Below are positions 46,432 through 60,449 of a DNA stretch of 64,000 bases, in pieces. The notes beneath the pieces were generated by a model. That model was not told where the DNA came from and did no database searches. It worked only from the letters and a program-made list of their open reading frames with translations. Position numbers and translations under genes: made by a program. Each line of letters opens with the position of its first letter. Within the stretch, counting starts at the first letter, position 1. The DNA lies in NCBI RefSeq assembly GCF_019679455.1, contig NZ_JAIEZQ010000001.1, forward strand, positions 1,612,001 to 1,676,000, read 5' to 3'. The stretch comes from Nocardioides jiangsuensis. Its GTDB lineage: Bacteria; Actinomycetota; Actinomycetes; Propionibacteriales; Nocardioidaceae.

Positions 46432-47106
46432 ATGGCGCGGCCAGACAAGACAGCAGCCGTCGCAGAGCTCGTGGAGTCGTTCCAGGACTCTGCAGGTGCT
46501 GTGCTGACCGAGTACCGCGGTCTCACCGTTAAGCAGCTGCAGGACCTGCGGCGCGCTCTCGGCGAGAACGCCTCTTACGCCGTGGTCAAGAACACGCTCA
46601 CCCAGCTGGCCGCCTCCGAGGCGGGTGTCGAGGGATTCGACGCCCTGCTCACCGGACCGACCGCCATCGCCTTCATCAACGGCGACGTGGTCGAGGCAGC
46701 CAAGGGTCTGCGTGACTTTGCCAAGGCAAACCCCTCTCTCGTGATCAAGGGCGGCGTCCTGGACGGCAAGCCGCTCGACGCGACGGAGATCGCCAAGATC
46801 GCTGACCTCGAGTCGCGCGAGGTTCTCCTCGGCAAGCTCGCGGGCGCGATGCTGGCATCGCTCAGCCAGGCCGTCTACCTGCTCAACGCGCCTCTCTCCC
46901 AGGCCGCCCGTCTCGCGGGTGCGCTGCAGGAGAAGGCTCAGCAGGACCCGTCGATCCTCCAGGGTGGTGCCGGCGAGCCGGCAACCGCGTCGGATGACGC
47001 CTCGAACGAGGCCGAGGAGGACACCGCGGAGGCCCCGGTCACTGACGAGGCTCCCGCGGCCGAGGAGTCGGCTGACGCCGCCTCCGAGGAGACCACCGAG
47101 GCTTAA
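46432..47106 (+). CDS. rplJ: 50S ribosomal protein L10
   Basis: A 224-residue L10; a typical length is about 175, and the extra ~45 residues are an acidic Ala/Glu/Asp-rich tail. [18 protein letters not shown] near residue 27, [11 protein letters not shown] and [17 protein letters not shown] are conserved. The C-terminal helix that binds L7/L12 dimers precedes the tail. AAGGAGA lies 4 bp before the ATG. Confidence 0.97.
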
Positions 47107-47181
47107 CAGGCCCGGGCCGACCAACACCCACACCCGATCCCCGCAGACGCGGGGGTCAGTCACACGGAAGGAAACGCCACC

Positions 47182-47571
47182 ATGGCGAAGCTCACCACCG
47201 ACGAGCTGCTCGACGCTTTCAAGGAGATGACCCTCCTCGAGCTCAGCGAGTTCGTGAAGCAGTTCGAAGACACCTTCGGCGTCACCGCCGCTGCCCCCGT
47301 CGCCGCTGCCGCCGCCCCGGCCGCCGGTGGCGCCGGTGAGGCTGCCGCTGTCGAGGAGCAGGACGAGTTCGACGTCGTCCTCGAGGCTGCCGGCGAGAAG
47401 AAGATCAACGTCATCAAGGAGGTGCGCGCGCTCACCAGCCTCGGTCTCAAGGAGGCCAAGGAGCTCGTGGAGTCCGCGCCCAAGGCCATCCTCGAGAAGG
47501 TCAACAAGGAAGCCGCCGAGAAGGCCAAGGAGTCCCTCGAGGGCGCCGGCGCCAAGGTGACGGTCAAGTGA
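47182..47571 (+). CDS. rplL: 50S ribosomal protein L7/L12
   Basis: A 129-residue L7/L12. N-terminal dimerisation part [20 protein letters not shown], Ala/Gly/Pro hinge, and C-terminal factor-binding domain with [20 protein letters not shown] and [17 protein letters not shown] upstream. Forms the stalk with L10. Confidence 0.98.
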
Positions 47572-47885: not shown

Positions 47886-48839
47886 GTGGGCGTCGAGATC
47901 AAGGTGGACGGGCTCACGAAGTCCTTCGGAAAGCAGCTGATCTGGGGTGACGTCTCCCTGACCATCCCGGCGGGCGAGATCTGCGTGATGCTCGGTCCGT
48001 CCGGCACCGGCAAGTCGGTCTTCCTCAAGACCATCATCGGGCTGCTCAAGCCCGACCGGGGCAGCATCGTGATCGAGGGTCTCGACATCGCGAGCTGCTC
48101 GGAGAAGGACCTCTACGAGATCCGCAAGCTCTTCGGCGTGCTGTTCCAGGACGGCGCGATGTTCGGGTCGATGAACCTGTACGACAACGTCGCCTTCCCG
48201 CTGCGCGAGCACACCAAGAAGTCCGAGTCCGACATCCACAAGATCGTCATGGAGAAGATGGACCTGGTCGGGCTCATCGGTGCCGAGGACAAGCTGCCCG
48301 GCGAGATCTCCGGCGGTATGCGCAAGCGCGCCGGCCTGGCCCGCGCCCTCGTGCTCGACCCCGAGATCGTCCTCTTCGACGAGCCCGACTCCGGTCTGGA
48401 CCCGGTGCGTACGGCGTTCCTCAACCAGCTGATCGTGGACCTCAACGCGCAGATCGACGCGACGTTCCTGATCGTCACCCACGACATCAACACGGCCCGG
48501 ACCGTGCCGGACAACATCGGCCTGCTCTACCACAAGCACCTCGCCATGTTCGGCCCGCGGGAGATGCTGCTCTCCAGCGAGGAGCCGGTGGTCCGGCAGT
48601 TCCTCAACGCCCAGCGTGTCGGCCCGATCGGCATGTCCGAGGAGAAGGACGCCGACGAGCTCGCGCAGGAGAAGGACCAGGAGCTCCCGCCGCTGCCGCC
48701 GATCCCGATGCAGCTCGAGCCCTCGAACGGCATCGCCCGGCGCAGCCAGCGCGAGCCGGGGGCCTGGTGCCGAGAGCACGGGGTGACCCCGCCGCCCGGG
48801 TCGTTCGACCAGAACATGTCCCTGGCGACCGGGGCCTGA
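47886..48839 (+). CDS. mkl: mce lipid-import ABC ATPase (Mkl/MceG, MlaF-like)
   Basis: A 317-residue ATPase that powers Mce lipid importers. It starts VGVEIKVDGLTKSFGKQ, Walker A GPSGTGKSV, Q-loop VLFQDGAMFGS, signature ISGGMRKRAGLARALVLDP, Walker B IVLFDEPDSGLDPVR and H-loop IVTHD. The C-terminal ~70 residues extend beyond the ATPase core as in Mkl proteins. GTG 47886 has GGGAGGG upstream and matches homologues; GTG 47838 would add 16 residues. First gene of the mce operon, next to rplL as in mycobacteria. Confidence 0.94.
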   Translation: MGVEIKVDGLTKSFGKQLIWGDVSLTIPAGEICVMLGPSGTGKSVFLKTIIGLLKPDRGSIVIEGLDIASCSEKDLYEIRKLFGVLFQDGAMFGSMNLYDNVAFPLREHTKKSESDIHKIVMEKMDLVGLIGAEDKLPGEISGGMRKRAGLARALVLDPEIVLFDEPDSGLDPVRTAFLNQLIVDLNAQIDATFLIVTHDINTARTVPDNIGLLYHKHLAMFGPREMLLSSEEPVVRQFLNAQRVGPIGMSEEKDADELAQEKDQELPPLPPIPMQLEPSNGIARRSQREPGAWCREHGVTPPPGSFDQNMSLATGA

Positions 48840-48842
48840 CCG

Positions 48843-49628
48843 ATGTCCTCGATCACCTCGTCGAAGGTCCTCGCACCGGTCGGCACCGCGGGCAAGCTCT
48901 TCGCCTTCGGTCTCGACGTGGCGCGCGGGCTCTTCAAGCGCCCCTTCCAGCTGCGGGAGTTCCTGCAGCAGGCCTGGTTCATCGCCTCGGTCACGATCGT
49001 CCCGACGGCCCTCGTCGCGATCCCGTTCGGTGCGGTCATCGCGCTCCAGGTCGGCGGTCTGATCAAGCAGTTCGGTGCCCAGTCGTTCACCGGCTCCGCC
49101 GCGGTGCTGGCCGTGGTCCGCGAGGCCGGGCCGATCGCCACGTCGCTGCTGATCGCCGGCGCCGGCGGGTCCGCGATCGCCGCCGACCTCGGCGCGCGGA
49201 AGATCCGCGAGGAGCTCGACGCGATGATGGTGCTCGGCATCGACCCGATCCAGCGGCTCGTCGTACCCCGCGTGCTCGCCACCATGCTCGTCGCGGTCTT
49301 CCTCAACGGCCTGGTCAGCGTGGTGGGGGTGGCCGGTGGCTACGTGTTCAACGTGGTCCTCCAGGACGGCACCCCGGGCGCCTACCTCGCGAGCTTCACC
49401 GCGCTCGCCCAGCTACCGGACCTGTGGCAGGGCATGGCGAAGGCGCTCGTCTTCGGACTGATCGCCGCGATCGTCGCCGCCTACAAGGGGATGAACGCCG
49501 CGGGTGGCCCGAAGGGCGTCGGTGACGCCGTGAACGAGGCGGTCGTCATCACCTTCATGCTCCTGTTCGTCGTCAACTTCGTGATGAGCGCGATCTACTT
49601 CCAGCTCGTCCCGCCGAAGACAGGTTGA
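48843..49628 (+). CDS. MlaE/YrbE-type ABC permease (YrbEA)
   Basis: A 261-residue membrane permease. The MlaE-family signature REAGPIATSLLIAGAGGSAI and IREELDAMMVLGIDP are present, with about five helices and a C-terminal GVGDAVNEAVVITFMLLFVVN. It forms the inner-membrane channel with the second YrbE protein. It starts 3 bp after the ATPase stop. Confidence 0.95.
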   Translation: MSSITSSKVLAPVGTAGKLFAFGLDVARGLFKRPFQLREFLQQAWFIASVTIVPTALVAIPFGAVIALQVGGLIKQFGAQSFTGSAAVLAVVREAGPIATSLLIAGAGGSAIAADLGARKIREELDAMMVLGIDPIQRLVVPRVLATMLVAVFLNGLVSVVGVAGGYVFNVVLQDGTPGAYLASFTALAQLPDLWQGMAKALVFGLIAAIVAAYKGMNAAGGPKGVGDAVNEAVVITFMLLFVVNFVMSAIYFQLVPPKTG

Positions 49629-49633
49629 TCGCC

Positions 49634-50473
49634 ATGTCGAGTATGGGAACGACCCTGCGGTCGATCTACCAGAAGCCGCTGAGGTCGCTCGACGGCCTCG
49701 GCGCGGAGCTGGCCTTCTACGTGAAGGCGATCGCGTGGACGCCGCGCACCGTCCGCCGCTACAAGAAGGAGATCCTGCGTCTCCTCGCGGAGGTCACCCT
49801 CGGCTCCGGCGCGCTCGCCGTGATCGGCGGCACCGTCGGCGTGATCACCGCGATGGCGTTCTTCACCGGCACCGAGGTGGGCCTCCAGGGCTACGCCGCG
49901 CTGAACCAGATCGGCACCGCGGCGTTCTCCGGCTTCGTCTCCGCCTACTTCAACACCCGCGAGATCTCGCCGCTGGTGGCCGGGATCGCGCTCGCCGCGA
50001 CGGTGGGCTGCGGGTTCACCGCCCAGCTCGGCGCGATGCGGATCTCCGAGGAGGTCGACGCGCTCGAGGTGATGGCGATCCCGTCGCTGCCGTTCCTGGT
50101 CACCACCCGGATCATCGCCGGGCTGATCGCGATCGTCCCGCTCTACGTGGTGGGCCTGCTCTCGTCGTACTTCGCCACCCGGCTGACCGTCACGCAGTTC
50201 TTCGGGCAGAGCGCGGGCACCTACGACCACTACTTCAACGCCTTCCTGCCGCCGGGCGACGTCCTGTGGTCCTTCGGCAAGGTGCTCGTCTTCGCCGTCG
50301 TCGTGATCCTCATCCACTGCTACCACGGCTACAACGCCAGCGGCGGCCCCGCCGGAGTGGGCCTGGCCGTGGGCCGCGCCGTGCGGACCTCCATCGTCGC
50401 CATCAACGTGATCGACCTGTTCCTGTCCATGGCGATCTGGGGCACCACCACCACCGTCAGGCTGGCGGGGTAG
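49634..50473 (+). CDS. MlaE/YrbE-type ABC permease (YrbEB)
   Basis: A 279-residue second permease. FTGTEVGLQGYAALNQIGTA, FVSAYFNTREISPLVAGIAL, AQLGAMRISEEVDALEVMA and GPAGVGLAVGRAVRTSIVAI follow the YrbEB pattern. The ATG at 49634 is taken; a TTG at 49625 is possible. Located 5 bp after YrbEA and 5 bp before the first mce gene. Confidence 0.94.
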   Translation: MSSMGTTLRSIYQKPLRSLDGLGAELAFYVKAIAWTPRTVRRYKKEILRLLAEVTLGSGALAVIGGTVGVITAMAFFTGTEVGLQGYAALNQIGTAAFSGFVSAYFNTREISPLVAGIALAATVGCGFTAQLGAMRISEEVDALEVMAIPSLPFLVTTRIIAGLIAIVPLYVVGLLSSYFATRLTVTQFFGQSAGTYDHYFNAFLPPGDVLWSFGKVLVFAVVVILIHCYHGYNASGGPAGVGLAVGRAVRTSIVAINVIDLFLSMAIWGTTTTVRLAG

Positions 50474-50478
50474 CTGTC

Positions 50479-51786
50479 ATGAACCGTCAGTCCAGAGGCT
50501 TCAAGCTGGCCGTCGCGCTCGAGCACCGGGCGTTCGGCGTGGCCTTCCTCGCCCTCCTGCTGCTCTTCGGCTGGCTGACGTACGCCATCTTCAACAAGAA
50601 GTTCACCGAGTACGACGAGGTGGCGCTCCGGTCCTCCAAGATCGGCCTGCAGCTCGGCGCGCGCGCCGACGTGAAGATCCGCGGCGTCCAGGTGGGGGAG
50701 GTGCTCGCGACCGAGGCGACCCGGGAGGGGGCCACGCTCACGCTGGGCCTCTTCCCCGACTCGATCGACACCATCCCCGCGAACGTGACGGCGCGGATCA
50801 TCCCCAAGACCCTGTTCGGCGAGAAGTACGTCGCCCTCCAGCTGCCCGCGCGGCCGGACACCGAGCCGATCGCGGCCGGCGACGTGATCGAGCAGAGCGA
50901 GGTCAGCATCGAGGTGGAGCGGGTGCTCAACGACCTCTACCCGTTCCTGCGCACGGTCCAGCCGGCCGAGCTGAACTACACGCTGACCGCGATCGCCGAC
51001 GCGCTCGAGGGCCGGGGCGAGGCGATCGGCAACAACCTGGCCGTCCTGGACGGCTACCTCGAGCGCACCAACCCGCAGCTGCCGGAGCTGGTCGAGGACC
51101 TGCGGCTGCTCAGCGAGGTCTCGGACGTGTACCGCTCCGCGGTCCCCGAGATCGCCCGGACGCTGCGCAACAGCGTGACGACGGGCGCCACGTTCATCGA
51201 GAAGGAGCAGAAGATCAAGTCCCTGTTCGAGGACGTGGCGAGCCTCTCGTCGACGTCGAAGGACTTCCTGGAGCAGAACGGCGAGAACATCATCCGGCTC
51301 GGTGAGCTCGGCGCCGCACAGCTTCCGGTGTTCGCGAAGTACGCGCCCGAGTACCCCTGCCTGCTGGGAGGCATCGTGGGCATCGGCCCCATGCAGGCGG
51401 AGGCCTTCCGCGGGTACACCCTGCACATCAACCTCGAGACCCTGCGCAAGCAGCCCCGGGGCTACGGCGCCCAGGACCAGGCGGTGTACGGCGACCGGCG
51501 CGGCCCGGCCTGCAACAACCTGCCGAACCCGCCGTGGACCCAGGACAACCTCCCGCCGGACGCGCTGGTGCCCGACATCGTCGACGGCGTCGACGAGCCG
51601 ACCGGCAAGCAGCGGGTGGCTCCCACGCTCGACCTCACCTCCGGCTTCGCGGGCACCGCCGCCGAGCGCGGCGTGGTGAACTCCGTGGCCGGTCCGGTGC
51701 TCGGGATGCCGGCCGCGGAGGTTCCCGACGTGGCGTCGCTGCTGTTCGCGCCGCTGGCCCGCGGGACGGAGGTGGCCGCGCGATGA
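50479..51786 (+). CDS. MCE family protein, MceA-type, copy 1
   Basis: A 435-residue exported protein: a short cytosolic start, one membrane helix (FGVAFLALLLLFGWLTYAIF), the MCE domain at about residues 40-125 (ADVKIRGVQVGEV, TARIIPKTLFGEKYVALQ), a long helical region, and a C-terminal domain with four Cys-containing loops. MCE proteins form hexameric tunnels that carry lipids to the YrbE permease. It is a tandem paralogue of the next gene and overlaps it by 4 bp (ATGA). Confidence 0.94.
   Translation: MNRQSRGFKLAVALEHRAFGVAFLALLLLFGWLTYAIFNKKFTEYDEVALRSSKIGLQLGARADVKIRGVQVGEVLATEATREGATLTLGLFPDSIDTIPANVTARIIPKTLFGEKYVALQLPARPDTEPIAAGDVIEQSEVSIEVERVLNDLYPFLRTVQPAELNYTLTAIADALEGRGEAIGNNLAVLDGYLERTNPQLPELVEDLRLLSEVSDVYRSAVPEIARTLRNSVTTGATFIEKEQKIKSLFEDVASLSSTSKDFLEQNGENIIRLGELGAAQLPVFAKYAPEYPCLLGGIVGIGPMQAEAFRGYTLHINLETLRKQPRGYGAQDQAVYGDRRGPACNNLPNPPWTQDNLPPDALVPDIVDGVDEPTGKQRVAPTLDLTSGFAGTAAERGVVNSVAGPVLGMPAAEVPDVASLLFAPLARGTEVAAR
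50924..51040 (+). repeat. 117-bp tract identical to 52216-52332 within tandem mceA copies
   Basis: Every base of 50924-51040 matches 52216-52332, including third codon positions. A second identical tract of 60 bp joins 50782-50841 and 52074-52133. The flanks differ at many positions. This points to gene conversion or recent partial duplication. Confidence 0.9.
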
Positions 51787-53084
51787 GCGTCCGTTCCGTG
51801 TTCGCCGCCGGCTCCAACCGGGTGCTCGGCGTGGCCTTCCTCGTCCTGCTGCTCACGTTCGTGTGGGGGACGTACGCGATCTTCACCAAGAAGTTCGTCG
51901 ACGTCGTCCCCGTGACCCTGAAGACCTCCAACATCGGCCTGCAGCTGCCCGCTCTGGCCGACGTCAAGATCCGTGGCGTGATCGTGGGGGAGGTGCGCGA
52001 GATCGCCTCCGACGGCGAAGGGGCCCGCCTCGAGCTCGCGCTCGACCCGGCGAAGACCGAGACCATCCCGGCCAACGTGACGGCGCGGATCATCCCCAAG
52101 ACCCTGTTCGGCGAGAAGTACGTCGCCCTCCAGGTCCCCGCCCGGCCGGACGCCGAGCCGATCGCGGCCGACGACGTGATCGAGGAGGCGGAGGTCTCGA
52201 TCGAGGTCGAGAAGCTGCTCAACGACCTCTACCCGTTCCTGCGCACGGTCCAGCCGGCCGAGCTGAACTACACGCTGACCGCGATCGCCGACGCGCTCGA
52301 GGGCCGGGGCGAGGCGATCGGCAACAACCTGGTCGTGCTCGACCGCTACCTCGAGCGCACCAACCCGCAGCTGCCGGAGCTCATCGAGGACCTGCGGCTG
52401 CTGTCCCAGGTGTCCGACGACTACGCCGGTGTGATGCCCGAGCTGGCCCGGCTGCTGCGCAACGGCGTGACGACCGGGAACACGTTCGTGGAGCAGGAGG
52501 CGAAGATCCAGGCGCTGTTCAACGACGTCGCCGGGTTCTCCACCACGTCGCGGGACTTCCTGGAGCAGAACGGCGAGAACATCATCCGGCTCGGCGAGGT
52601 GAGCGAGGCCCAGCTCCCGCTGTTCGCCGAGTACGCCCCGCAGTACCCCTGCCTGCTCGAGGGGATGGCGGACTGGATCCCCCGGATGAACAGCGGCTGG
52701 CGCGGACACACCCTGCACATCAACCTCGAGACGCTCAAGAAGCAGCCGACCGGCTACGGCACCGCCGACGACCCGGAGTACGACGCGAACAACGGCCCGC
52801 ACTGCGAGACGCTCCCGAGCCCGCCGTACTCCCAGGCCAACCCCGGCCCCCAGCCCCGGATGTCCGAGGTGGACGACGGCGTGGAGGACCCGCACGTGAA
52901 GTTCCGACGCCGCCCCGCCCCCGCTCTCGACCTCACCTCCGGCTTCGCCGGGACGGCGGCCGAGCGCTCGGTCGTCGCAGCCCTTGCCGCCCCCGTGATG
53001 GGAGTTCCCACCGATGACGTGCCCGACGTGGCGACACTGCTCCTCGGCCCCCTGGCCCGCGGGACGGAGGTGAGCGTGCGATGA
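51783..53084 (+). CDS. MCE family protein, MceA-type, copy 2
   Basis: A 433-residue close paralogue of the preceding protein along its whole length: the same membrane helix position, MCE domain (LADVKIRGVIVGEV), PAELNYTLTAIADALEGRGE, EYAPQYPCLLEG and a shared C-terminus LDLTSGFAGTAAERS. Two stretches are identical in DNA between the copies (60 and 117 bp). This gives the operon seven MCE genes instead of six. It overlaps the next gene by 4 bp. Confidence 0.94.
   Translation: MSVRSVFAAGSNRVLGVAFLVLLLTFVWGTYAIFTKKFVDVVPVTLKTSNIGLQLPALADVKIRGVIVGEVREIASDGEGARLELALDPAKTETIPANVTARIIPKTLFGEKYVALQVPARPDAEPIAADDVIEEAEVSIEVEKLLNDLYPFLRTVQPAELNYTLTAIADALEGRGEAIGNNLVVLDRYLERTNPQLPELIEDLRLLSQVSDDYAGVMPELARLLRNGVTTGNTFVEQEAKIQALFNDVAGFSTTSRDFLEQNGENIIRLGEVSEAQLPLFAEYAPQYPCLLEGMADWIPRMNSGWRGHTLHINLETLKKQPTGYGTADDPEYDANNGPHCETLPSPPYSQANPGPQPRMSEVDDGVEDPHVKFRRRPAPALDLTSGFAGTAAERSVVAALAAPVMGVPTDDVPDVATLLLGPLARGTEVSVR
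52216..52332 (+). repeat. second copy of the 117-bp identical tract
   Basis: Partner of 50924-51040, in the helical region just after the MCE domain of the second MceA-type protein. The repeat distance is 1292 bp in direct orientation. Confidence 0.9.
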
Positions 53085-54115
53085 GCCTCCTGGACAAGAG
53101 GACCGCGAGCGACGCGGTCAAGCTGATGGTGTTCATCGTGGTCACCACGGTCGCGACCAGCCTCCTCGTGATCACGATCGGCAACCTGTCGTTCTCGGCG
53201 ATGAAGGAGTACAAGGCGGTCTTCAGCGACGCCACCGGCGTCGTGAACGGCGACGACGTGCGGATCGCCGGCGTCAAGGTGGGCAACGTCGAGGACGTCG
53301 AGATCGTCGACAAGGACAAGGCGCTGGTCACGTTCAAGGTCGACGCCGACTCGCAGCTCGCCCGGAGCACCCAGGCGCAGATCCGGTACCGCAACCTGGT
53401 CGGTCAGCGCTACATCGCGCTGACCCCCGGGGCGGGTTCACCGTCGCTGCTCGCGGACGGCGACACCATCCCGCTCGAGCAGACCACGCCGGCGCTCGAC
53501 CTGACCGTGCTGTTCAACGGCTTCAAGCCGCTGTTCGAGGCGCTCTCGCCGGAGGACATCAACAAGCTCTCCTACGAGATCATCGCGGTCTTCCAGGGCG
53601 AGGGTGGCACGCTCGAGAGCCTGCTCGCGCACACCGCCTCGGTGACCAGCACGCTGGCCAGCCGCGACCAGATCATCGGGCAGCTGATCACCAACCTCAA
53701 CGAGGTCATGGTGACGCTGGGCGACCGGGACGACGAGCTGTCCAGCCTGCTGATCCGGCTGCGCGAGTTCGTCTCCGGTCTGTCCCAGGACCGCGAGGCG
53801 ATCCTCGGGTCGCTCGACTCCATCTCAGAGCTCGCCGTCGAGACGTCGGGCCTGGTGACCGGGATCCGGAAGCCGCTGGCCAAGGACGTCAGCGAGCTGC
53901 GCCGCCTGACGGGCACCCTCGACGCGAACAAGGGGGAGCTCGACCGGGCGATCAAGGTGCTGCCGATCAAGCTGAACAAGATCGGCGCGACCGCGACCTA
54001 CGGCTCCTGGTTCAACTTCTACCTGTGCAACTTCGACGGCCGGGTCAAGCTCCCCGGCGGGACCACCGTCCCGGTCGACTACAGCACCGACTCGGCGAGG
54101 TGTGATCTCGGATGA
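53081..54115 (+). CDS. MCE family protein, MceB-type
   Basis: A 344-residue MCE protein. The membrane helix is LMVFIVVTTVATSLLVITIG. The MCE domain has VFSDATGVVNGDDVRIAGV and LVGQRYIALTPG, followed by long helices with SLLIRLREFVSGLSQDRE. It ends with GSWFNFYLCNFDGRVKLPGG, a pattern typical of MceB. Starts and ends in 4-bp overlaps. Confidence 0.92.
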   Translation: MSLLDKRTASDAVKLMVFIVVTTVATSLLVITIGNLSFSAMKEYKAVFSDATGVVNGDDVRIAGVKVGNVEDVEIVDKDKALVTFKVDADSQLARSTQAQIRYRNLVGQRYIALTPGAGSPSLLADGDTIPLEQTTPALDLTVLFNGFKPLFEALSPEDINKLSYEIIAVFQGEGGTLESLLAHTASVTSTLASRDQIIGQLITNLNEVMVTLGDRDDELSSLLIRLREFVSGLSQDREAILGSLDSISELAVETSGLVTGIRKPLAKDVSELRRLTGTLDANKGELDRAIKVLPIKLNKIGATATYGSWFNFYLCNFDGRVKLPGGTTVPVDYSTDSARCDLG

Positions 54116-55083
54116 GCGTCCCCTTCCGCGAGCGGAACCCCGTGATCGTCGGCGCGGTCAGCCTCGCCGTGATCACCGCGATGATCATGGCCGCCTTCCG
54201 CGCCGAGGACCTGCCGCTGATCGGCGGCGGCGACACCTACTACGCGGCCTTCAGCGAGGCCGGTGGCCTCAAGGCCAACGACGAGGTGCGCGTGGCCGGC
54301 GTCCGGGTCGGCAAGGTGCAGAGCGTCGACCTCGACGGCGACCACGTGCGCGTCGAGTTCACCGTCGAGCGCGGCGTCGACTTCGGTGCCGAGACCGCGG
54401 CGAACATCAAGGTGAAGACGCTCCTCGGCGCCATGTACCTCGCGCTCGACCCGGCGGGCTCCGGTCAGCTCGAGGAGGGCGCGGAGATCCCGCGGGAGCG
54501 CACCACGTCGCCGTACGACGTCGTCGACGCGTTCGAGGGGCTGGCCAGCACCTCCGAGCGGATCGACACCGACCGTCTCGCCACCTCCCTCGACACCCTG
54601 TCCACGCTCATGCAGGACACCCCCGAGGAGTTCCGGGGCGCGCTGCGCGGGATGTCCGCGCTGTCGCAGAACATCGCGGCCCGCGACGCCCAGCTCAACG
54701 AGCTGCTCGGCAACATGCAGAAGGTGTCGAAGGTCCTCGCGGACCGCAACGGCGACCTGGTCACGCTGATGGAGGACGGCGACAAGCTGTTCCGCGCGCT
54801 CGTCGCCCGGCGCGAGGCGGTGCACAACCTGCTCGTGGCCACCAGCCAGCTCTCCCGGGAGCTCACGCTCCTGGTGCGCCAGACCCGGGCCGACCTCAAG
54901 CCCGCGCTGGACAACCTCGACAGCGTGGTCGACATGCTCAACCGGAACCAGGAGAACCTCGACAACAGCCTGCGGCTGATGGCGCCGTTCTACCGGGTGT
55001 TCGCGAACACCCTCGGCACCGGTCCGTGGTTCGACACCTACATCCAGAACCTTCCGCCCGTGCCCCAGATCGGAGGGAACTGA
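54112..55083 (+). CDS. MCE family protein, MceC-type
   Basis: A 323-residue MCE protein. N-terminal helix IVGAVSLAVITAMIMAAF, MCE domain with FSEAGGLKANDEVRVAGVRV and KVKTLLGAMYLALDPAG, then helices rich in Leu heptads (ARDAQLNELLGNMQKVSKVL). The C-terminus FANTLGTGPWFDTYIQN matches MceC-like proteins. The next gene begins 1 bp after its stop. Confidence 0.92.
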   Translation: MSVPFRERNPVIVGAVSLAVITAMIMAAFRAEDLPLIGGGDTYYAAFSEAGGLKANDEVRVAGVRVGKVQSVDLDGDHVRVEFTVERGVDFGAETAANIKVKTLLGAMYLALDPAGSGQLEEGAEIPRERTTSPYDVVDAFEGLASTSERIDTDRLATSLDTLSTLMQDTPEEFRGALRGMSALSQNIAARDAQLNELLGNMQKVSKVLADRNGDLVTLMEDGDKLFRALVARREAVHNLLVATSQLSRELTLLVRQTRADLKPALDNLDSVVDMLNRNQENLDNSLRLMAPFYRVFANTLGTGPWFDTYIQNLPPVPQIGGN

Positions 55084-55084
55084 C

Positions 55085-56254
55085 ATGAGTGCCGTCTCGA
55101 AGCTGGGCGGGCTGACCCGCATCCTCTCGCTGGTCGCCGTCGCGGCCGTCCTGGTCGCCGCCACGCTGACCCTGCTCCCCGGCGAGGAGAAGAAGTACGT
55201 CACCGCGAGCTTCCCGCGGACCGTCTCGCTCTACGAGGGCTCCGACGTGCGGATCCTCGGCGTCCCGGTCGGCGAGGTCGAGAGCGTGACCCCGTCGGGC
55301 ACCGACGTGACCGTGAAGATGTGGTACGACGCCCAGTACAAGGTCCCCGCGGACGCCAAGGCGATCATCATCTCCCCGGCGATCGTGGGCGACCGGTTCG
55401 TCCAGCTCACCCCGGTCTTCCAGGGCGGTGACGTGATGGCCGACGACGCCACGATCGACGCCGAGTCCACCTCGACCCCGCTCGAGCTCGACGAGATCTA
55501 CCGGAGCATCGACGACCTCACCGTCGCGCTGGGCCCCGAGGGCGCCAACAAGGAGGGTGCCCTGACCCGGCTCCTCGACTCGACCGCGCGCAACTTCGCC
55601 GGGCAGGGCGAGCAGTTCAACCAGACCATCCAGGACCTCGGCAAGCTCACCGGCACCCTGGAGAACAACAAGGAGGAGCTCTTCGGGACCGCGCAGCAGA
55701 TCCAGCGCTTCGTCGGCGCGCTCGCGCGCAACGACCAGACGGTCCGGCGGTTCAACCAGTCGCTCGCGGCCGCGGCCGACGTGCTCGAGGGGGAGCGGGA
55801 CGACCTGGCCGCCTCGCTGCGCAACCTCGGGGTCGCGATGCAGGAGGTCTCCGGCTTCGTCCGGGAGAACCGCTCCGCGCTGACCGAGAACATCGACGGG
55901 CTGAACCGGGTCACGAAGATCCTCGTCAAGCAGCGCGACGCGCTGTCGGAGGTGCTCGACGTGGCGCCGCTGACGCTGAACAACCTGTTCCTCACCTACA
56001 ACCCCGACACCGGCACGCTCGACACCCGGGCCAACCAGGGTGAGCTCGGGGGCCAGATCGAGTCCGACCCGGCCGCGTTCCTGTGCTCGGTGCTCCGGCA
56101 GGCCGACCCGAGCGGCGAGTCCTGCTCGGCGGTGCGGGAGGCGCTCCCGCGGGCCGCCGCCCTCGACCGGGGCGCCCCGCAGGACAGACCGACCGAGAGG
56201 GTCCCCGTGGAGATCGTCGACAAGTCCCTGGCCGGCCTCGTGGAGGTGAAGTGA
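55085..56254 (+). CDS. MCE family protein, MceD-type
   Basis: A 389-residue MCE protein. Helix ILSLVAVAAVLVAATLTLL, MCE domain with LYEGSDVRILGVPVGEVESV and ISPAIVGDRFVQLTPV, a conserved STPLELDEIYRSIDDL, then helical tunnel region. Cys-containing C-terminal part (FLCSVLRQADPSGESC). Its stop shares one base with the start of the lipoprotein gene. Confidence 0.92.
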   Translation: MSAVSKLGGLTRILSLVAVAAVLVAATLTLLPGEEKKYVTASFPRTVSLYEGSDVRILGVPVGEVESVTPSGTDVTVKMWYDAQYKVPADAKAIIISPAIVGDRFVQLTPVFQGGDVMADDATIDAESTSTPLELDEIYRSIDDLTVALGPEGANKEGALTRLLDSTARNFAGQGEQFNQTIQDLGKLTGTLENNKEELFGTAQQIQRFVGALARNDQTVRRFNQSLAAAADVLEGERDDLAASLRNLGVAMQEVSGFVRENRSALTENIDGLNRVTKILVKQRDALSEVLDVAPLTLNNLFLTYNPDTGTLDTRANQGELGGQIESDPAAFLCSVLRQADPSGESCSAVREALPRAAALDRGAPQDRPTERVPVEIVDKSLAGLVEVK

Positions 56255-57684
56255 TGCGCCGCACCACCCCCCGCACCCACCGCACCCGGGCCGGACGCGT
56301 CGCCGCGCTGGCCTGCGTCGGCGCCCTCGCGCTGAGCGGCTGCGACTTCAGCGTCTACGACCTGCCGCTCCCGGGCGGTGCGGACCTCGGGGACGACCCC
56401 TACTCCGTGCGCGTGCAGTTCCGTGACGTGCTCGACCTGGTCCCGCAGTCCGCGGTCAAGGTCAACGACGTGACCGTGGGCAAGGTCGACGACATCGAGG
56501 TCGACGGGTTCACCGCCGAGGTCACCCTGCTGTTGCGCGAGGACGTGAAGCTGCCCCAGAACTCGCTGGCCGAGATCCGGCAGACCAGCCTGCTCGGCGA
56601 GAAGTTCGTCTCGCTCGAGGCCCCCGAGACCGGGGCGAGCCGGGACCTGCTCTCCGACGGCGAGCTGATCCCGCTCGAGAGCAGTGGCCGCAACCCTGAG
56701 GTGGAGGAGGTGCTCGGCGCGATGTCGCTGCTGCTCAACGGCGGCGGGGTGGCCCAGCTCAAGACCATCGCCACCGAGCTCAACAAGGCCCTGGACGGTC
56801 GGGAGAGCGACGTGAAGTCGGTGCTCCGGCAGCTCGACACGTTCATGGGCCAGCTCGACCGGAACAAGCAGGACATCGTCGAGGCGATCGAGAGCCTCAA
56901 CCGGCTCGCGGTCTCGATCAACAAGCAGCGCGGCTCGATCGAGCTCGCCCTCGACGAGATGCCCCAGGCGCTCGCCTCGATCGACCGGCAGCGCGACGAC
57001 CTGGTGAAGATGCTGCGCGCGCTCGACGAGCTCAGCGCGGTCGGCACCGACGTGATCCGGCGGTCCAAGACGGCCACGATCAACAGCCTCGAGCTGCTCG
57101 ACCCGGTGCTCACCAAGCTCGCCGACGCCGGGGACGCGCTGCCCAAGGCGTTCCAGGTCTTCCTCACCTACCCGTTCGTCGACGAGGTGGTCGGGCGCAA
57201 CCCGGTCCAGGCGGCGAACCTGCACATGGGTGACTACACAAACCTCTCGATCCAGACCGACATCGACCTGACCCAGGGCCTGCCCGACGTCCCCGGCCTG
57301 CCCGGCGCACCGGAGATCCCGCTCCCTGACCTGGTCGAGCAGTGCCGGAAGACCCCGGCCAAGCCGATCTGCGACACCCTCGAGGACACCGGGGACAACC
57401 TGCCGAACGTGCCGGTCCCCACCGTGGAGAACCCCGACCTGACCGGCGACGGCTCCGGCGGGACCGGCGGCGGTGACGGAGGGTCCGGCGACGGCGGCAC
57501 CGGCGGGACCGGCGGCGACGGCTCCGGCGACTGCGGCATCCCGCTGCTGTGCCGGACGGCGCCCGGCGGCGCGGCCGGCTCCGGCGGCTCGGGCGGGCCG
57601 CGGGACACCATGACCAGCTTCGCGGACCTCGGCTACGACCCGACTCTCAGCGTGCTGCTGACCCAGGGGATGGTGCAGCGATGA
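56254..57684 (+). CDS. MCE family lipoprotein, MceE-type (LprK-like)
   Basis: A 476-residue lipoprotein. The signal peptide ends in lipobox LALSGC with the Cys at about residue 33. The MCE domain has VRVQFRDVLDLVPQSAVKVN and LLGEKFVSLEAPE. The helical region follows, then a disordered Gly-rich segment at about residues 395-430 (GGTGGGDGGSGDGG type) containing one CG pair before a final conserved SFADLGYDPTLSVLLTQG. As the lipidated member it probably anchors the outer part of the complex. Confidence 0.93.
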   Translation: MRRTTPRTHRTRAGRVAALACVGALALSGCDFSVYDLPLPGGADLGDDPYSVRVQFRDVLDLVPQSAVKVNDVTVGKVDDIEVDGFTAEVTLLLREDVKLPQNSLAEIRQTSLLGEKFVSLEAPETGASRDLLSDGELIPLESSGRNPEVEEVLGAMSLLLNGGGVAQLKTIATELNKALDGRESDVKSVLRQLDTFMGQLDRNKQDIVEAIESLNRLAVSINKQRGSIELALDEMPQALASIDRQRDDLVKMLRALDELSAVGTDVIRRSKTATINSLELLDPVLTKLADAGDALPKAFQVFLTYPFVDEVVGRNPVQAANLHMGDYTNLSIQTDIDLTQGLPDVPGLPGAPEIPLPDLVEQCRKTPAKPICDTLEDTGDNLPNVPVPTVENPDLTGDGSGGTGGGDGGSGDGGTGGTGGDGSGDCGIPLLCRTAPGGAAGSGGSGGPRDTMTSFADLGYDPTLSVLLTQGMVQR

Positions 57685-58976
57685 TCACCCAGCGGACCAA
57701 GCTGCAGCTCATCGTCTTCGTGCTGATCACGCTGGTCGGCGTCGCGTACGTCGGCGCCCGCTACGCCCGGCTCGACCGGCTCGTCTTCGACGACTCCTAC
57801 CGGGTCGTGGCGCACTTCGCCGACTCCGGCGGCATCTTCGAGGGCGCCGAGGTCTCCTACCGCGGCGTCAGCGTCGGCCAGGTCGGCGACATGGTGCTCA
57901 CCGAGGACGGCGTCGACGTCCTCCTCGACATCGACGACGACAGCGAGAAGATCCCGCTCGACACCAAGGCACTCGTCGGCAACCGTTCGGCGGTGGGGGA
58001 GCAGTACGTCGAGCTCCAGCCCAACACCGACTCCGGCCCGTACCTCGGCGAGGACTCCGAGATCGCCATGGACCAGACCGAGACGCCGATCCCGACCACG
58101 AAGCTGCTCGTCGACCTCGACAAGATGGTGAACTCGGTCGACAAGGACAGCCTGCGCACCGTGGTCTCCGAGATGGGCAAGGCGTTCAACGGCACCGGTG
58201 ACGACCTCGGCCAGATCATCGACACGTCGAACTCGTTCATCGAGACCGCGAACGACAACTTCAAGATCACCTCGGCCCTGATCCGCGACAGCAACACCGT
58301 GCTCCGGACCCAGCGCGACAGCGCGTCGGACATCCAGAGCTTCGCCCGCGACCTCGCGCTGCTCTCCGACACGCTCGTCGCCAGCGACGGCGACCTGCGC
58401 CGCGTGATCGCCAACGGCAGCGCCACGGCGAACGAGCTGCGCCGGTTCATCGAGGAGAACGAGGTCAACCTCGGCCAGCTGATCAACAACCTGATCACCA
58501 CCGGCGAGGTCACCGTGGCCCACCTCGACGGCATCGAGCAGATCCTCGTGCTCTACCCGTACGTCGTCGAGGGCGGCTACACGGTGGTCGCCAAGGACCC
58601 GCAGAGCGGCCTGTACGACGCCCACTTCGGGATGGTCCTCACCGAGGAGCCCAAGGTCTGCCGGGAGGGCTACGAGAGCACCGACGTCCGCGAGCCGCAG
58701 GACACCTCGGACCGCCCGATGAACGAGGACGCCCGCTGCACCGAGCCGCAGGCGCAGTCCAACGCCCGAGGCGCGCAGAACGCCCCCCGAGCCGGCACAG
58801 CGTACCGGGCCCCTGTGGTGGCCGCGTACGATGCCGGGACGGGGAAGGTCCAGTACACCGACGAGAGCCCGAGCGACGCGATCAGCTACACCGGCGGTGC
58901 CGCCTCCGCGTTCGGCGAGGAGTCCTGGAAGTGGCTGCTCCTCCAGCCGCTGGCCGGGCAGCAGGAGCGACCATGA
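57681..58976 (+). CDS. MCE family protein, MceF-type
   Basis: A 431-residue MCE protein. It starts LQLIVFVLITLVGVAYVGAR (membrane helix), the MCE domain reads FADSGGIFEGAEVSYRGVSV and GEQYVELQPNTD. A TTKLLVDLDKMVNSV helix and a C-terminal region with two Cys (EPKVCREGYES, DARCTEPQ) follow. It overlaps both neighbours by 4 bp. It completes the MCE set. Confidence 0.93.
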   Translation: MITQRTKLQLIVFVLITLVGVAYVGARYARLDRLVFDDSYRVVAHFADSGGIFEGAEVSYRGVSVGQVGDMVLTEDGVDVLLDIDDDSEKIPLDTKALVGNRSAVGEQYVELQPNTDSGPYLGEDSEIAMDQTETPIPTTKLLVDLDKMVNSVDKDSLRTVVSEMGKAFNGTGDDLGQIIDTSNSFIETANDNFKITSALIRDSNTVLRTQRDSASDIQSFARDLALLSDTLVASDGDLRRVIANGSATANELRRFIEENEVNLGQLINNLITTGEVTVAHLDGIEQILVLYPYVVEGGYTVVAKDPQSGLYDAHFGMVLTEEPKVCREGYESTDVREPQDTSDRPMNEDARCTEPQAQSNARGAQNAPRAGTAYRAPVVAAYDAGTGKVQYTDESPSDAISYTGGAASAFGEESWKWLLLQPLAGQQERP

Positions 58977-59533
58977 CCCACGACCAGCCCCACGCGGGCA
59001 CCGAGAGCCACGACGACGACCCGGTCGGCCGGGAGTCGCGACGCCCGGTCCTGTCCGCGTCGCTGCGGCGGACGATGGCGGTCGTGCTCACCGTCCTGCT
59101 CGTGGTCTCCGCGGGCGTCGGCCTGTGGAGCTTCCAGCAGCTCAGGGAGTCCGACGCCGAGCTCGAGACGCGGGCCGACGTGGCCCGGGTGGCCGAGCAG
59201 TTCACGGTCTCGGTGAACAACTACGACTCCGAGTCGGTCGAGGACTACCAGTCCACGGTCAGCCGGATGCTCAGCACCAAGTTCCAGACCGAGTTCGCCA
59301 AGGCGATGGAGGACATCGTCGCGTCGGTCCAGCAGGCCCAGATGGACTCGAAGGGAACGGTGCTCGCCTCGGGGGTGGCCACCGTCGACGACGACTCCGC
59401 CCGGGTGCTCGTGGTCGCCGACGCCGACGTGAAGACCGTGTTCGACAACCGGCAGCGCCACTTCCGGTGGGAGGTCGCGCTGGTCAAGGTCGACGGCACC
59501 TGGCTCGTCGACGACTTCACGCCGGTCGCCTGA
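58973..59533 (+). CDS. Mce-associated membrane protein (Mas)
   Basis: A 186-residue protein: 35 hydrophilic residues, one helix (MAVVLTVLLVVSAGVGLWSF), and an extracytoplasmic NTF2-like domain ending DGTWLVDDFTPVA, the hallmark of Mce-associated proteins. Such proteins stabilise the Mce complex. It starts in a 4-bp overlap with the MceF-type gene. Confidence 0.9.
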   Translation: MTHDQPHAGTESHDDDPVGRESRRPVLSASLRRTMAVVLTVLLVVSAGVGLWSFQQLRESDAELETRADVARVAEQFTVSVNNYDSESVEDYQSTVSRMLSTKFQTEFAKAMEDIVASVQQAQMDSKGTVLASGVATVDDDSARVLVVADADVKTVFDNRQRHFRWEVALVKVDGTWLVDDFTPVA

Positions 59534-59549
59534 GGGAGTGCACACCGAC

Positions 59550-60449
59550 ATGAACCCCACCCTGTACGACATCCTCGGCGTCGCCCCCGACGCGAGCCGG
59601 GACGAGGTCAAGCACGCCTGGCGCGACGCCGCCGAGCGGTTCGAGCCCGGCTCCGGCGGCTCCACCGCCCAGTTCCGGATGTTCAACGAGGCCGCCGAGG
59701 TGCTCCTCGACCCCGAGAGGCGGGCGGAGTACGACGCACGGCTCGCCGCCGCCGAGCCGCGGTCAGGCGGGACCGCCGTACCCCCGGCTGCCCTCCCGAC
59801 GGCACCGGTGCCGGGCGCGTCGACCGCCACCGTGACCCTGACGAAGGCCGACCCCGCGGACGACCGGGTCGAGCCGAGCCGTGAGCCGGCTCCTCCGGTC
59901 GCGGCGGACCGGGTGCCCGACCGGACGCCGGGGGAGCGGGAGACGCAGAAGCGGGGCGTGCCCACCGTGGCTCTGGTCGCCCTCGCCGTGATCACCGCGC
60001 TGGTGGTCGGCCTGGCGGCGTACTTCGCGTTCGAGGCCAAGCGGGCCGCGGACTACCGGGAGGCCCTCGACCGGGCTCCGGCAGCCGCCGAGCGTGCCGC
60101 GGTCGCCGTGCTCTCCTACGACTACGAGTCGCTCGAGACCGACCGGGACGCGGCGGCGAGGTTCCTCACCGACGACTACGAGAAGACCTACGTCGAGACC
60201 TTCGGGCTGGTCGAGGAGAACGCGCCGGACCTGAAGGCGCAGGTCGAGGCGCAGGTGCTGGCGTCCTCGACGATGGTCGTGCCGACCGGTGACCAGGACC
60301 CGGACCGGGTGCCGGTGCTGCTGTTCGTCAACCAGACAACGAAGAGCACGGCCAACGACGGCCGCCCGACCACCGCGCTCAACCGGGTGCAGCTGGACAT
60401 GGAGAACGTCGACGGAACCTGGCTGGTGGACGGGATCACCTCCTACTGA
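59550..60449 (+). CDS. J-like domain fused to a Mce-associated (Mas) domain
   Basis: A 299-residue protein. Residues 1-65 match a J domain (NPTLYDILGVAPDASRDEVK; FNEAAEVLLDPERRAEYD), but the HPD tripeptide needed to stimulate DnaK reads EPG. A ~75-residue Pro/Ala/Thr linker leads to one helix (VALVALAVITALVVGLAAYF) and a Mas-type exported domain ending NVDGTWLVDGITSY. The J part would be cytosolic. It follows the Mas gene by 16 bp; ATG 59550 preferred over GTG 59538. Last gene of the mce operon. Confidence 0.85.
   Translation: MNPTLYDILGVAPDASRDEVKHAWRDAAERFEPGSGGSTAQFRMFNEAAEVLLDPERRAEYDARLAAAEPRSGGTAVPPAALPTAPVPGASTATVTLTKADPADDRVEPSREPAPPVAADRVPDRTPGERETQKRGVPTVALVALAVITALVVGLAAYFAFEAKRAADYREALDRAPAAAERAAVAVLSYDYESLETDRDAAARFLTDDYEKTYVETFGLVEENAPDLKAQVEAQVLASSTMVVPTGDQDPDRVPVLLFVNQTTKSTANDGRPTTALNRVQLDMENVDGTWLVDGITSY

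Follow-up and report, generated by a model that had tools for sequence, protein, structure and literature searches.

A J-like domain without the HPD motif fused to a Mce-associated domain at the end of the mce operon of Nocardioides jiangsuensis

What can a J domain do in a Mce importer when its chaperone trigger, the HPD motif, is gone? The question is raised by the last gene of the mce operon of Nocardioides jiangsuensis, here called J-Mas. It lies in the stretch of 64,000 nucleotides that we analysed (the window; assembly GCF_019679455.1, contig NZ_JAIEZQ010000001.1, positions 1,612,001 to 1,676,000), whose own numbering is used below. The initial annotation, made from the sequence alone, proposed that the J-like module serves docking or assembly instead of chaperone activation, and it knew of no precedent for the architecture. 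We now put a probability of roughly 0.55 on the reading that J-Mas is a bitopic docking or assembly subunit of the Mce importer, with the J-like domain as a cytosolic dock that does not activate DnaK.

The J-Mas gene, its operon and its distribution

The J-Mas reading frame is open from the ATG at 59550 to the stop codon ending at 60449 and encodes 299 amino acids (Table 1). The Pfam DnaJ profile matched residues 5-62 at a score of 48 bits (cut-off 27.8), far beyond chance. The place of HPD is taken by EPG, as was described originally. The rest of the initially annotated layout, a membrane helix followed by a Mas-type exported domain, was borne out as well. The protein contains a single hydrophobic helix (best segment at residues 140-160), and a profile of 40 distinct fusions matched OmamC (PDB 9r33), a mycobacterial Mce-associated protein. 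These 40 fusions include that of the window; duplicates were merged and a broken gene (L011/L066) was omitted. The C-terminal domain ends DGTWLVDGITSY. A Pfam scan of J-Mas at E up to 1 returned PF00226 only and no VirB8 family. In Pfam and NCBIfam together the J part alone was recognized, the Mas part staying below every curated cut-off (NCBIfam Rv0361_Cterm E 0.21, under its cut-off). A frame or annotation error behind the fusion was ruled out because 39 further distinct sequences carry it. According to the charge rule only, the N-terminus is most likely cytosolic: the net charge was greater on the N-side of the membrane helix in 32 of the 40 fusions, and when Lys and Arg alone were counted, the N side was richer in 22 fusions and the C side in seven.

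Table 1 Features of the J-Mas gene and the mce operon (positions in the window)
Feature	Position	Strand	Basis
rplJ-rplL	46432..47571		
Whole mce operon	47892..60449		
mceG (Mkl) ATPase	47892..48839	+	PF00005, E 2.9e-28
Two yrbE permease genes	48843..50473	+	PF02405, E 3.6e-69 and 2.8e-64
Seven MCE-domain genes	50479..58976	+	Seven MlaD matches at E up to 0.001 genome-wide, all in the window
mas1, ordinary Mas-type gene preceding J-Mas	58973..59533	+	ORF; NCBIfam Rv0361_Cterm E 8.1e-6, under its cut-off
J-Mas gene, closing the operon	59550..60449	+	ORF; 40 distinct fusions aligned, including that of the window
J-like domain, residues 4-66	59559..59747	+	PF00226, E 1.4e-12; PF00226 in 40/40 fusions; predicted helices 5-9, 17-30, 38-53 and 55-68
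EPG replacing HPD, residues 32-34 (E32-P33-G34)	59643..59651	+	Sequence; variants across 40 fusions
Variable linker, predicted disordered, about residues 69-138	59754..59963	+	Block pLDDT 44-72 over residues 71-140; 22% mean pairwise identity
Membrane helix, about residues 139-161, N-terminus most likely cytosolic	59964..60032	+	Hydropathy and flank charges; the model shows a helix at 139-188
Exported Mas domain, NTF2/VirB8-like fold, residues 164-299	60039..60446	+	Fold comparison; OmamC (9r33) E 7.4e-7
rpoB	60766 onward		

The genes follow in the order mceG, yrbE, yrbE, seven MCE genes, mas1 and J-mas, which agrees with the placement of the gene at the operon end in the initial annotation. 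The whole operon, the only mce operon of the genome, sits between rplJ-rplL and rpoB. All 12 loci that were compared (L066-L075, L083 and L177) showed the order mceF-mas1-J-mas-rpoB, with mceG in reach in eight of them. The genome carries four J domains, that of J-Mas and three others, all three with HPD and none near the mce operon. Weak Pfam matches of mas1 to FhaA_N and INV_N were under the cut-off and were disregarded.

Three further features of the locus were observed. The two adjoining genes that head the MCE series (50479-53084) are alike, so that there are seven MCE genes and not six; a close relative (L182) also seems to carry two such genes. The C-terminal tail of MceG, roughly 75 residues long (48612-48839), had halves averaging 85% and 70% identity to the MceG of the window across 31 other loci from several families. 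Mce operons linked to rpoB were also seen in several other families. The lone mycobacterial mkl gene is described as sitting in the ribosomal/rpo gene region (PMC1810536), and because of this location it may be a relic of an rpoB-linked mce arrangement.

The initial annotation had suggested a search for the same fusion in other actinobacterial mce operons. Full-length J-Mas matches were found in at least 148 of 294 genomes of the family Nocardioidaceae (148 of the 150 matches listed, counted by eye and one per genome, one with an internal stop), among them Nocardioides pocheonensis, N. mangrovi, N. kribbensis, N. soli and a Marmoricola. The order sample (147 genomes, E up to 1e-30) gave 30 full-length matches and a J-side fragment in G122, all from the same family. 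Among the matches listed for the class sample (196 genomes), nine were in one piece and one (G092) was in two overlapping pieces, again all from this family, and the phylum sample (149 genomes, E up to 1e-20) returned the window's own genome only. Thus, no J-Mas fusion outside the family was seen in the order and phylum samples or among the matches listed for the class sample. In a Nocardioidaceae metagenome-assembled genome (L066, 7210-8058; the same gene in L011), an in-frame stop separates the membrane helix from the exported domain of J-Mas, which may be an assembly error or a real split.

Fold, HPD position and conservation of the J-like domain

Two structure models were compared. Model 1, of the window protein, was built on the 40 fusions (mean pLDDT 85.5) and consists of the J helices, a linker predicted to be disordered, a long helix starting at residue 139 and an alpha/beta domain reaching to the end. 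Model 2, of a relative from the other sublineage (L015) with a shorter loop reading DPT, was built on 35 rows (mean pLDDT 89.6) and has the same layout. The J-domain helical hairpin, on which the J-like assignment depended in the initial annotation, is present in both models. The J part of model 1 was superimposed on the human DnaJ part of 4wb7 with Z 12.3 and rmsd 1.3 over 69 residues, and that of model 2 on solved structures with Z 11.2 and rmsd 1.5 over 65 residues. The exported domain resembled NTF2-like domains of the VirB8/DotI type (Z about 12-15 in model 1 and 12-16 in model 2) and the intermembrane domain of ARC6 (5had; Z 10.8, rmsd 3.2 over 121 residues). OmamC (9r33) was not among the 50 structure matches listed in these fold comparisons, which excludes no kinship.

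The HPD status was read from the 40 distinct fusions, not from all 148 matching genomes. HPD occurred in none of the 40, and so no homologue with the conserved motif was found among them. The position read EPG in 21, DPT in 14, DPG in two, and DPS, EPT and DPA in one each, which means that the first residue was always acidic, Pro was invariant and the third residue was Gly, Thr, Ser or Ala. In contrast, HPD was kept in 82 of 82 similar J domains outside J-Mas (three from the window's genome, 69 and 10 others), a set chosen by similarity and not at random. Since the J hairpin is predicted and HPD is absent from all 40 fusions, we infer, with good support, that J-Mas does not activate DnaK.

The J-like domain also has residues of its own. 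Trp at position 24 was present in 40 of 40 fusions and in only one of the 82 outside J domains, which usually have Tyr there. Ala49 was found in all 40 fusions, with Tyr at this position in 62 of the 82, and Leu53 in 39 of 40 fusions against four of 82. The mean net charge of helix II was 0.03 in the fusions and 2.39 outside.

These helix II data bear on the possibility that the domain is a non-productive binder of DnaK, which would hold DnaK through helix II without hydrolysis and either tether it at the importer or block true J proteins. R22, K26 and R27 of DnaJ helix II are described as touching DnaK (PMC10349383). After transfer of the DnaJ numbering by the one-residue offset of HPD, the positions matching R22 and K26 were basic in 40 and 38 of the 40 fusions, respectively, as such a binder would need, whereas that matching R27 was Arg in only one. 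DnaK activation thus becomes very unlikely, although weak binding is still compatible with the two basic positions. We consider a DnaK binder of this kind unlikely, given that both H and D of HPD are gone from all fusions, that helix II is neutral on average, and that the J-like domain of CJD1 bound no HSP70 in the yeast two-hybrid assay described in PMC3196505.

The J domains of the 40 fusions formed one clade (support 0.993). Its sister group was weakly supported (0.06 to 0.84), and its neighbours, weakly supported as well, consisted for the most part of J proteins from actinobacteria that have a short HPDxGG loop; judging from the sequences, most of these proteins carry membrane segments C-terminal to the J domain. 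HPD-bearing actinobacterial proteins with this loop, among the nearest outside relatives of the J-like domain, were seen at L171-L176 and L181.

Mean pairwise identity across the 40 fusions was 60% in the J-like part, 41% in the exported Mas domain, 32% in the membrane helix and 22% in the linker. Nonsynonymous change was lower in the J-like part than in the linker in 14 of 14 listed pairs (of 780) and lower than in the Mas domain in 12 of these 14. The dN/dS ratios were not used because the synonymous values looked saturated or distorted, often lying below the nonsynonymous ones. Decay of the J-like domain was rejected, since no other part of J-Mas is as conserved. Its conservation, its own signature (W24, A49 and L53) and its neutral helix II point to a domain that is repurposed.

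Exchange of the J-like domain and the RRxIAG motif at one locus

J-less orthologues occupy the same rpoB-linked locus inside and outside the family. All 18 that were examined (16 from one comparison and two from another) adjoin rpoB, which in L216 is about 2.6 kb distant. An RRxIAG[EQD]-type motif precedes the membrane helix in 14 of the 18, the loosest form being RPVAGQ in L213. Second Mas proteins without a J domain carry the motif, written as R-R-x-[IVP]-A-G-[EQD], in L199, L201, L203-L205, L207 and L210-L217. We know of no name or function for it. The strict RRxIAG pattern occurred in none of the 40 J-Mas proteins, and a looser pattern matched one (L052). In the J-less protein of G014, the exported domain shares 66% identity with that of the window protein over 110 residues, but the short motif stands where the J domain would be. 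Because 14 of the 18 J-less orthologues carry the motif instead at the same locus, the J-like domain and RRxIAG look interchangeable, and the exchange of one end with the rest kept is the best evidence that the two may do related jobs. The remaining four orthologues have neither, so that at some loci the protein can do without a cytosolic module.

When a tree was computed from six operon genes, a core clade was made up of the J loci, and three J-less loci were nested in it, L199 and L201 with the motif and L200 with neither module. Parsimony on this tree (45 tips) required four changes of J gain or loss, against a mean of 14 and a lowest value of nine in 500 shuffled sets. In the Mas-domain tree, which was poorly resolved, L184/L197 and L188, all of them J loci, came out next to J-less ones with support of 0.83 and 0.95. 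The reconstruction of one gain and three losses therefore depends on the six-gene tree. The three nested J-less operons would fit a neutral passenger, a captured J domain without present function. The strong conservation of the J-like part across the fusions and the full-length matches in at least 148 of 294 family genomes make this highly improbable.

A J gene split off nearby was sought in the 18 J-less operon loci and was not found (best E 0.64); a partner logic based on such a gene was discarded. The same result weighs on a Tim16-like arrangement, in which the J-like domain would pair with one of the HPD-bearing J proteins present in the cell and regulate it at the membrane. Pairing of this type has precedents in Tim16-Tim14 and CJD1-ARC6 (PMC3196505), and the three further J domains of the genome, all with HPD, could supply a partner. 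However, none of them lies near the operon and no J domain was found in the 18 J-less loci, so that we regard such pairing as very doubtful.

Partner genes were also searched for columns with no residue common to J and J-less loci and with no more than two different residues among the J loci. None was found in MceG, YrbEA, YrbEB or MceF, in what is a weak test with two or three J-less rows (only two within the clade had the MceG, YrbEA and YrbEB genes). With equally few rows, there was one such column in mceC, two in mceD, nine in mceE, 26 in lpr and five in mas1, and these are read as fast or gappy evolution. The J-like domain might instead regulate ATPase coupling by acting on the contact of MceG with YrbEB and thereby set transport activity, as mycobacterial Mce1N does. 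The cytosolic part of that membrane protein is reported to keep MceG off YrbE1B (PMC10517005), and the J-like part is probably cytosolic likewise. We rank this reading after DnaK binding among the unlikely ones, since no J-dependent column appeared in MceG or YrbE (weak as the test was) and Mce1N, with its two predicted membrane helices, is another kind of protein.

Proposed function and comparison with known systems

We favour the docking subunit outlined above. Outside the cytoplasmic membrane, the VirB8/NTF2-like Mas domain would meet the MCE assembly, probably together with the neighbouring Mas1. The cytosolic J-like domain, on its long flexible tether, would dock a protein partner, most likely a component of the transporter or its cytosolic client, and docking could coordinate assembly, stability or activity across the membrane. 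HPD-less J-like domains elsewhere serve as binding parts, which is why the J-like part is read as a tethered docking head. CJD1 did not replace E. coli DnaJ and bound ARC6, another J-like protein, in yeast two-hybrid assays, with no genetic link in the double mutants described (PMC3196505), and CPP1 stabilises an enzyme via its J-like domain (PMC9407819). A stabilising role is also reported for OmamA, which acts on Mce4 and Mce1 (PMC10865790). As to the initial proposal of docking or assembly instead of chaperone activation, the missing HPD and the predicted J hairpin speak for its second half, and docking is backed indirectly by the conservation of the J-like domain and the motif exchange at the locus.

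The J module, of the membrane-anchored actinobacterial type, may have taken the place of the short RRxIAG tail in an older Mas protein of this locus, then lost HPD and been conserved afterwards; both the direction and the order of these changes are conjectural. More tentatively, a J domain may have been acquired in a single event, deprived of its chaperone trigger and retained as a cytosolic docking head for the same partner site as the RRxIAG peptide. A folded domain and a linear motif would then have substituted for each other in the evolution of one transporter, and chloroplast ARC6 would have arrived at this layout independently. We think this wider scenario possible, with the odds against it.

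The findings bear on how Mas/Mam proteins help Mce importers. Two studies describe purified Mce1 of M. smegmatis without Mam proteins (PMC10517005; PMC9882608); a stable J-Mas complex is thus not assured and the contact may be transient. The evolution of J-Mas marks the cytosolic end as the most conserved one, and the J-like domain and RRxIAG represent a natural swap at one locus. Both are small, soluble baits, and so allow a direct search, in harmless soil bacteria, for the cytosolic partner of Mas proteins. J-Mas further provides a clear example of a J domain from which the chaperone trigger has been removed across much of a bacterial family.

Mas proteins are described as typically paired, with the N-terminus inside, an exported C-terminal domain and varied N-termini (Casali and Riley 2007, PMC1810536). 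J-Mas conforms to this: it is the second gene of a mas pair that closes the mce operon downstream in the same direction, its single membrane helix lies about 160 amino acids from the C-terminus, within the 140-180 typical of the group, with the N-terminus inside by the charge rule only, and its exported domain has a sequence match to OmamC. It differs in its J-like N-terminus, those described for Mas proteins being kinase, RDD and coiled-coil, and the word 'dnaj' does not occur in the main text of PMC1810536. The exported domain shares its fold with VirB8/DotI of type IV secretion systems. Unlike these, J-Mas has no VirB8 family match in Pfam, and its gene belongs to a mce operon, with no secretion system here. 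To our knowledge, VirB8/DotI proteins have no J-like domain.

J-Mas has the J fold and the PF00226 match of J-domain proteins, the Hsp70 co-chaperones, but not their HPD motif. By the definition given in the literature, it belongs to the J-like (type IV) proteins, which have the J fold with an altered HPD, and it shares with them a reduced helix II charge. Members without HPD include the bacterial DjlB, RESA and DNAJB13 (PMC10349383) as well as Tim16 (PMC3196505). Compared with these four by description, J-Mas differs as a separate clade with its own signature and a fused exported Mas domain. It resembles CJD1 of Arabidopsis chloroplasts in being a membrane protein with an HPD-less J-like domain; loss of CJD1 alters the fatty acids of chloroplast lipids. 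CJD1, however, has three predicted membrane helices, and no NTF2-like domain is described for it in PMC3196505.

In the literature searched, outside which most subscription journals lay, no paper joined a J domain or DnaJ with Mce or a mce operon, none joined Mce-associated proteins with NTF2, and no title among those on J-like or HPD proteins named Mce. HPD-less J proteins and Mas proteins are each already known; it is their combination that was not found there. In this respect the initial remark on a missing precedent stands, but by layout chloroplast ARC6 is a precedent. Like J-Mas, ARC6 has a J-like domain inside, a membrane anchor and an NTF2-like domain outside, a likeness of both layout and fold. 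Ftn2/ZipN is the cyanobacterial relative of ARC6. In ARC6 the J-like domain is followed by a conserved region that binds FtsZ2 (PMC3196505), whereas J-Mas has no such long conserved region but a short linker of about 70 variable residues. Because this region is absent and other NTF2-like domains match the exported domain as well as that of ARC6 or better, the likeness between the predicted J-Mas structure and ARC6 is likely to be a convergence.
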